A model generated the notes under the pieces. The model had not been told where the DNA came from. It was given only the letters and a program-made list of their open reading frames with translations, and ran no database searches. 64,000 nt of DNA from positions 1 to 64,000 of the forward strand of contig NZ_JACHFH010000002.1 in NCBI RefSeq assembly GCF_014201835.1, read 5' to 3'. Made by a program: the position numbers and the translations under genes. The stretch's first letter is position 1. Every line of letters starts with the position of its first letter. Of this stretch, positions 1 through 1,229 are shown in pieces. The DNA is from Pectinatus brassicae. Lineage in GTDB: Bacteria; Bacillota; Negativicutes; Selenomonadales; Selenomonadaceae.

Positions 1-88
1 CCAATCTCTATATGCATATTTCTATACATACTGACTAGTTTGGTCGCCTAACTCACGACTAAAGTCACGAGTGTGCGGCTCCCATTTA
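1..88 (-). mobile_element. End of an IS200/IS605 (TnpB-type) element, partial
   Basis: Read on the minus strand, this stretch has GGGAGCCGC followed by a hairpin with 9-bp arms (plus-strand 51-59 and 64-72, loop TAAA). The arms pair fully if two G-U wobbles are allowed in minus-strand RNA. From memory, this GGGAGCCGC plus CTCGTGACTTTAGTCGTGAG pattern is typical of the end of tnpB-carrying IS200/IS605 elements, where it forms the 3' part of the guide (omega) RNA. It abuts a minus-strand TTGAT (plus 89-93), the known target motif of ISDra2-like elements, and directly interrupts cysW. No transposase or tnpB is in the window, so I cannot say which end it is or whether it is a short non-autonomous derivative. 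Confidence 0.55.
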
Positions 89-385
89 ATCAATAAGTGT
101 TGTCAAAAATTTACTGCCCCGGCAATAAAACCGTGTCAAAGCCCATGCCGCAAAAAGGCCAAATATACTGTTGCAAATAACAGCAATTAGAGTTGTTGTT
201 ATCGATAACTGCAGTGCCTGCAAAGTTAAATGATTACTGACTGCTACTATATAAGAATTAATGCCATTTTTAAATGCCTCATGAAAAATAACAATCAGCG
301 GCAGTAGCAGCATAATAAAAATAAATATTATACTGATTGCAATCAAAATATATTTACAGCTCATTATATTTTTTAAATTTGCCAT
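86..385 (-). pseudogene. cysW: Sulfate ABC transporter permease CysW, truncated
   Basis: The 99 encoded residues match the N-terminus of CysW, the second membrane subunit of the sulfate/thiosulfate importer: a first membrane helix (about 12-35), a periplasmic segment, and a second helix starting near residue 57. The frame reaches TLID, where full-length homologues continue with LPF-SVSP and about 180 more residues, then hits TAA immediately. The stop is the first codon after a TTGAT motif beside an IS-like end, so the truncation looks like insertion damage. The permease core, including the EAA loop that contacts the ATPase, is missing. The gene starts 1 bp after cysT ends, as expected in a sbp-cysT-cysW-cysA operon. 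Confidence 0.8.
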
Positions 386-386
386 A

Positions 387-1229
387 CTATTTTCTGCCCC
401 CGCTGATAATTGCCTGATAATGTATTTGCAGTGAATTTATTGCCAACATGATAACAAAAGAAAATATCAGCATTACAATAGCGATAGCAGTAGCCTGCGG
501 ATAATCAAACTGCTGCAGCTTAACCATTATCAATAGTGGAACAATCTCACTTTTATAAGGCATATTACCAGCAATGAAGATTACGCTGCCATATTCCCCC
601 AATGCCCTGGCAAAAGCTAACCCACCACCTAACAGCAATGCTGGCAGAAGCTCTGGTAATACCACTTTGCGTAAAATAGTAAATCGTCCTGCCCCTAATG
701 TAAAAGCAGCTTCTTCAAATGACGGATCAAGATTTTGCAATATAGGCTGTATCGTTCTTACCACAAACGGAATCGTTACAAACACAAGAGCAATCGTTAT
801 TCCTATCTGACAGTAGGCTAATTTTATCCCCCATGGTGCAGTTATCGAGCCAATCAATCCCGCTGGTGCATATAACGATGCCAAGGATATACCTGCTACC
901 GCCGTTGGCACTGCAAAAGGCAATTCTATGAGCCCATCGATAATTGCCTTGCCGGGAAAATCATAACGTACTAAAACCCATGCTAAAACAGTACCAAACA
1001 AACAATTAATGATAGCCGCAGTCAATGAACAAACAATGCTTACAATATAACCAGATATAATTCTTCTATCAAAAACAGCATGAACAAATTGCATCCATGT
1101 CATATCAGCTGCCACAATTATAATAGAAATAAGCGGCAGCAATATAATAAAACTAATATAAAAGATAGTAATGCCCATCGAGATATTAAACCCGGGGATA
1201 ATACTGCTATTTTTTATTTGCATTGACAT
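387..1229 (-). CDS. cysT: Sulfate/thiosulfate ABC transporter permease CysT
   Basis: This is the membrane subunit (CysT/CysU) of the sulfate importer, 280 residues, the normal family length. About six hydrophobic helices are visible. The EAA motif that docks with the CysA ATPase is EEAAFTLGAGRFTILRK, about residues 170-186, followed by VVLPELLPALL. The N-terminus is preceded by GAGG a few bases before the ATG; an internal ATG two codons later is a possible alternative. It lies 19 bp downstream of the sulfate-binding protein gene and just before the truncated cysW, so its partner subunit is probably lost and the transporter may be non-functional unless another cysW exists. Confidence 0.93.
   Translation of the reverse strand: MSMQIKNSSIIPGFNISMGITIFYISFIILLPLISIIIVAADMTWMQFVHAVFDRRIISGYIVSIVCSLTAAIINCLFGTVLAWVLVRYDFPGKAIIDGLIELPFAVPTAVAGISLASLYAPAGLIGSITAPWGIKLAYCQIGITIALVFVTIPFVVRTIQPILQNLDPSFEEAAFTLGAGRFTILRKVVLPELLPALLLGGGLAFARALGEYGSVIFIAGNMPYKSEIVPLLIMVKLQQFDYPQATAIAIVMLIFSFVIMLAINSLQIHYQAIISGGRK

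Follow-up and report, generated by a model that had tools for sequence, protein, structure and literature searches.

The window, i.e. the whole 64,000-nucleotide stretch analysed here, starts at the first base of contig C2 and opens within an interrupted sulfate transport operon on the minus strand. The cysW reading frame runs from its ATG at position 385 to the codons CTT ATT GAT, and a TAA follows directly after codon 99. The original prediction had placed this cut at TTGAT (positions 93 to 89), next to the minus-strand motif GGGAGCCGC and a hairpin ACTCGTGAC/GTCGTGAGT (51 to 72), and all of these are present. It had also assigned the adjoining 85 bp to a mobile element; an element does lie there, but it begins at base 88, not 85. 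The interior of the element is outside the window. The features of the locus are:

1 to 88, minus strand: left (5') end of the IStron described below, equivalent to the first 88 nt of its group I intron and running to the contig end; one of a 23-member repeat family whose full copies continue into an RF00028 intron and tnpB
31 to 35, minus strand: predicted internal guide sequence GUCAG, pairing with exon UUGAU with a U.G wobble at the splice site (helix P1; minimum free energy fold, pair probabilities 1.0)
51 to 72, minus strand: imperfect palindrome ACTCGTGAC-TTTA-GTCGTGAGT, within the P1 loop of the fold; by analogy with ISDra2, the presumed TnpA recognition hairpin
89 to 93, minus strand: TTGAT target and presumed TAM, the final 5 nt of the 5' exon; precedes 23/23 left ends
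89 to 385, minus strand: cysW 5' exon, 297 nt, 99 codons, phase 0 at the junction; TIGR02140 (CysW) profile positions 2-90
387 to 1229, minus strand: cysT, upstream of cysW in the same operon; TIGR02139, 365.8 bits
1249 to 2385, minus strand: sulfate-binding protein gene; NF008022, 434.3 bits; the ORF is given as listed and its true start is probably downstream

The rest of cysW was found on contig C53 of the same genome (G000), where a terminal copy of the right end of the element is followed by ATTCCCTTTACAATATCC. Joining the half in the window to the half on C53 yields a single cysW frame of 275 amino acids; the 3' exon covers TIGR02140 positions 91-259, and the junction thus falls between adjacent profile residues (90|91). 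An ABC ATPase gene, presumably cysA, follows the C53 half in the same direction. A search of 60 genomes with the 3' half of cysW produced a match of some kind in 58. The own genome gave four matches, and the three listed were C53 itself, the neighbouring cysT and a distant permease on C1; no second close match was found among those listed. All 19 cysW-like loci aligned from other genomes are uninterrupted, without a gap within 15 residues of the junction, at identities of 48-78% for 18 of them and 34% for L116, a more distant permease. Since TTGAT occurs at the junction site in only 7/19 of these relatives and in none of the four from the same genus, they represent uninterrupted homologues and not exact empty target sites. 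As judged from the halves adjoining at 90|91, gap-free against the uninterrupted genes, no target-site duplication is present.

A search of the genome with the left-end sequence located it at 22 further places with 95-100% identity (21 over 92-96 bases, one over about 50), which is not due to chance. All 23 elements begin directly after TTGAT, which was not part of the left-end pattern used in this genome, in agreement with the predicted IS200/IS605-family, ISDra2-like insertion. The right end gave 27 matches, 25 of them close; every close one finishes with GGTTCAG, as do the divergent L045 and L046, i.e. the 3' terminus is TCAG. Two tnpB-bearing copies, L011 (contig C24) and L014 (C26), are assembled throughout and bear out the suggested tie to a tnpB element beyond the window. 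From left to right, they consist of the 88 bases seen in the window, an RF00028 group I intron, tnpB and a right end finishing GGTTCAG. The Rfam model is matched over its full length (1-253) in both, with 69-70 bits against a gathering threshold of 50. In 3/3 copies, the motif GAACGA stands before the IS200/IS605 ORFs, at offset 429 counted from the start of the intron. The TnpB of L011 has 369 aa, and its best natural PDB match, just behind an AI-designed nuclease, is 8bf8 ('RNA-guided DNA endonuclease TnpB', E 1.4e-109), which we take to be the TnpB of ISDra2. One other copy is assembled through (L048, G000:C42:1509-2400; 0.9 kb, in an aminotransferase gene). Most of its tnpB is gone, leaving the intron, the 3' end of the gene and the right end; no RF00028 match at gathering level was reported for it, though its intron is 97% identical to that of L011. 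The element between C2 and C53 is unassembled, and its completeness is presumed from the other copies.

Among the known elements closest to this architecture, ISDra2 shares the TTGAT target, the homology of TnpB and the presence of hairpins at both ends. It differs in that the available part of PMC8612924 describes no intron and no splicing for it. CdISt1, the IStron of C. difficile, shares the TTGAT target, the TCAG 3' end, a group I intron 5' of tnpB, the GAACGA motif and the lack of a target duplication (PMC4227781). The present element has the target, 3' end, GAACGA motif and order of ORFs that this survey gives for group A IStrons; insertion just 3' of TTGAT (or ATTAT/TTTAT) is one of the properties of the group. 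Because the end in the window is at once a left end and the predicted 5' splice site and P1 helix of a group I intron, we conclude with high confidence that the element is a CdISt1-like group A IStron. Its nearest named relative is a C. difficile plasmid copy, presumably CdISt1, with the same hairpin core, the same internal guide sequence GUCAG and the right end GGTTCAG. The introns are 77.3% identical over 84% of the query, whereas the TnpB proteins are only 62.5% identical and the own-genome copies lack a visible tnpA. MfISt1 (Megamonas) and MspISt1 (Megasphaera) are likewise group A IStrons of Negativicutes, with a truncated ORF A, an ORF B and a length of 1.8 kb. They were compared by description (PMC4227781, Table 1) and are present in one copy each, in contrast to the 23 left ends found here. 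No earlier report of the present element was found in the IStron literature among the matches listed, with the 2014 survey as the main open source. The kind of element is already known; new are its high copy number, the split uppS and tsaB genes, the strong sense bias and a tnpA-bearing copy in a sister species.

The 5' junctions of six sequences were folded as 10 nt of exon plus 70 nt of intron. P1 was predicted in all six: exon UUGAU pairs with intron GUCAG or GUUAG, leaving a U.G pair at the splice site. In the sequence of the window, the five exon pairs have a probability of 1.0, and the hairpin noted originally lies inside the P1 loop. According to this model, the end in the window is presumably the 5' splice site, and presumably also the end acted on by TnpA, and not an omega-RNA scaffold.

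It is very likely, in our judgement, that cysW has received, directly behind a TTGAT and in sense orientation, a CdISt1-type IStron combining IS200/IS605 ends, a group I intron and tnpB. We infer splicing, the production of a guide RNA from the right end and the action of TnpA in trans. In the cysT-cysW operon transcript, exon UUGAU would pair with the internal guide GUCAG, and the intron would excise itself from TAA... to ...TTCAG, joining LID to IPF, so that intact CysW would be translated from the spliced RNA. On unspliced RNA, translation would stop at the UAA with which the intron begins, in frame with cysW. The right end of this RNA would supply an omega-RNA with the 3' half of cysW (ATTCCCTTTACAATAT) as its guide; TnpB might then be aimed at the empty TTGAT-cysW allele and, as by analogy with ISDra2, help the element to persist. 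Spread would depend on a Y1 TnpA acting on the two hairpins. Judged from the sequence, cysW is probably still usable and sulfate import probably not lost, as splicing should restore the frame.

The same arrangement is repeated across the genome. When 21 left/right pairs were joined, 20 gave a continuous sense frame and one an antisense insertion; the pairs were picked by eye from proteins and frames and then tested by joining, and the count was thus not blind. The weakest pair, C42:87 with L034, spans 142 codons and lacks a Pfam match on both sides. Partners were not found for the left ends L056 and L058 or for several right ends (L027, L029, L032 and L039). The 5' side of both L056 and L058 is a sense frame, with Pfam support for L058 only; including them, 22 of the 23 insertions are sense. 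The ends of L056 with L027, and of L058 with L039, possibly come from one gene each with an intervening piece missing; perhaps two IStrons reside in one gene and the short middle was lost in assembly. Host genes named by eye from the sequence include pgi, uvrA, recN, ahcY, motA and hsdR, while uppS and tsaB are supported by profile search and mtmB by Pfam. The mtmB gene (monomethylamine methyltransferase; L052, G000:C26:1-1500, 3' part L030) contains a TAG in frame, which is what a pyrrolysine codon would look like. This codon lies about 110 nt upstream of the left end of the IStron that interrupts the gene. UppS is represented in the own genome only by two IStron-split pieces, covering profile positions 1-65 and 64-219. 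The TsaB matches in this genome are only the split gene and the separate TsaD; the 3' piece of tsaB starts at TIGR03725 position 42, and the 44-aa 5' piece matched no family, probably being too short. Both uppS and tsaB are usually essential. Since they are nevertheless interrupted, splicing very likely works in the cell, as far as can be judged from sequence.

Related introns were matched in at least five of the 60 genomes, the own genome included, and in one of these (G008) over 40 bases only; the best 10 candidates were scored in many genomes. The sister genome G004, assembled in two contigs, contains 10 copies with both ends, eight intragenic and all of these sense, and two intergenic. It gave at least 20 matches (best 40 of 52 candidates scored), of which those beyond the 10, being incomplete or divergent, were left out of the count. 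All 10 follow TTGAT, the search pattern there itself demanding TGAT. In G010, 12 copies were found, 12/12 after TTGAT, with 10 in sense and two intergenic or unclear. G004 also carries an intron-less mini-element of about 170 bp (L146, G004:C1:2364300-2368300, about 1505-1680); the gene directly downstream of it was identified by eye as lon-like. The mini-element consists of an IStron-like left-end hairpin followed by right-end-like sequence; the left ends of L144 and L145 are similar.

The original prediction, which did not consider an intron, amounts to a plain knock-out of cysW by an IS605/tnpB element that lacks a functional one, with the sulfate importer losing a permease. The stop codon immediately after the junction is compatible with this, and so is the antisense insertion, which lies in an amino-acid permease gene (L002/L038), cannot be spliced and is surely disruptive. 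The permease loss was nevertheless deduced with the group I intron overlooked, the removal of which rejoins cysW in frame; RF00028 is complete in both tnpB-bearing copies that are assembled through. Moreover, a sense orientation of 22/23 stands against a TTGAT background in the genes of the window of 159 sense to 74 antisense (29 further sites lie between genes), and second copies of the interrupted uppS and tsaB were not found in the own genome. We therefore consider a simple knock-out very unlikely and retain the spliceable IStron.

Even less probable is that bases 1-88 represent the scaffold end of an omega-RNA, or a small non-autonomous element that supplies guide RNA. This assignment, made originally for 1-85, may stem from the 13-nt hairpin core GACTTTAGTCGTG which is common to the left end and the true right end; in addition, the sister genome has intron-less left-end matches of 40-44 nt, in L146 followed by right-end-like sequence within about 200 nt. 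In full copies, however, the window-type end sits 5' of the intron and tnpB and points inward, and its outer flank is the 5' half of cysW. In ISDra2, according to PMC8612924, TTGAT serves as the TAM, the omega-RNA (reRNA) derives from the right end and the guide is the approximately 16 nt outside that end. This description, of an end located 3' of tnpB and bordered by its guide, fits the right end on C53, whereas the end in the window does not fit it. The further suggestion of a guide RNA toward cysW is sound in principle, as the guide end on C53 faces the 3' half of cysW. Finally, a chimeric contig end with an intact cysW is hardly credible: the window does start at a contig end, and 19/23 left-end copies lie within 100 bases of one, but the assembly runs right across the C42 copy and two tnpB-bearing copies, both ends are in place in 10 copies of the two-contig genome G004 and no second close match to the 3' half of cysW was found in the own genome among those listed.

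In the three genomes together, 41/45 IStron insertions are intragenic and 40 of these 41 are sense. For CdISt1, PMC4227781 gives 58% intragenic insertions, 54% of them in frame. The sense background was taken from roughly defined ORFs in the single 64-kb window and used for all three genomes; against it, the binomial p is 0.0018 for 22/23 sense and 3e-6 for 40/41. With a background of 85% sense assumed, p is 0.01. Selection for phase 0, i.e. for an immediate stop, was rejected: 34/40 sense insertions compare with 136/159 background sense TTGAT sites, without an excess (17/22 in the own genome). Avoidance of intergenic sites was rejected as well (4/45 observed, 29/262 expected). By the GC-skew sign of the fetched stretch, 8/10 copies in G004 and 11/12 in G010 (the twelfth with a weak skew) are codirectional with the replication fork, and fork bias may contribute to the sense bias. 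Two G004 copies, L136 and L137, are oriented against the fork, yet with their gene.

No tnpA was seen in any IStron copy of the own genome. The sister species G004 has a copy, L138, with an intact IS200-type tnpA (138 aa; NF033573) and tnpB (369 aa; NF038281). The leader of the tnpA-less L011 ends with sequence resembling the 3' end of the L138 tnpA, which suggests that the L011 type may have arisen by deletion. A TnpA helper in trans was looked for among the three Y1 proteins of the own genome (the IS200-like L018 and the IS605-like L017 and L019), which are only 33-38% identical to the TnpA of L138, and none was fitting. L017 (G000:C29) and L019 (G000:C36) are IS605-like elements with their own tnpA (TnpA 34-38% identical to that of the IStron); the start of tnpB is seen in L017, and the left end of L017 looks like the right end of an IStron in inverted orientation. 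In PMC4227781, mobilization in trans was deemed unlikely, as no genome with truncated copies had an intact ORF A copy; contrary to this pattern, tnpA-less copies and an intact-tnpA copy occur side by side in G004.

A tentative proposal, which we regard as possible but not favoured, is that IStrons are channelled from the outset into the sense strand of genes on the leading strand by the lagging-strand bias of IS200/IS605 transposition, that unspliceable copies are lost and that copies without their own tnpA spread in trans, driven by a rare complete copy like L138 of the sister species. If true, this would explain why single-strand transposons are good partners of group I introns and why more than 20 copies are tolerated, even in uppS and tsaB. 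An apparent loss of genes is in any case corrected by recognizing the IStrons, as automatic annotation would label cysW, uppS, tsaB, uvrA and others as broken. With over 20 almost identical IStrons, several of them in genes that are usually essential, the genome also offers a natural test bed for splicing versus guide-RNA production from the same RNA.

A separate observation concerns a RAGATH-18 RNA match in the own genome (L059, G000:C22:12500-15500, at 1782-1845). It lies right after a divergent tnpB, whose product is 31% identical to the IStron TnpB, and is perhaps the guide-RNA region of that gene.
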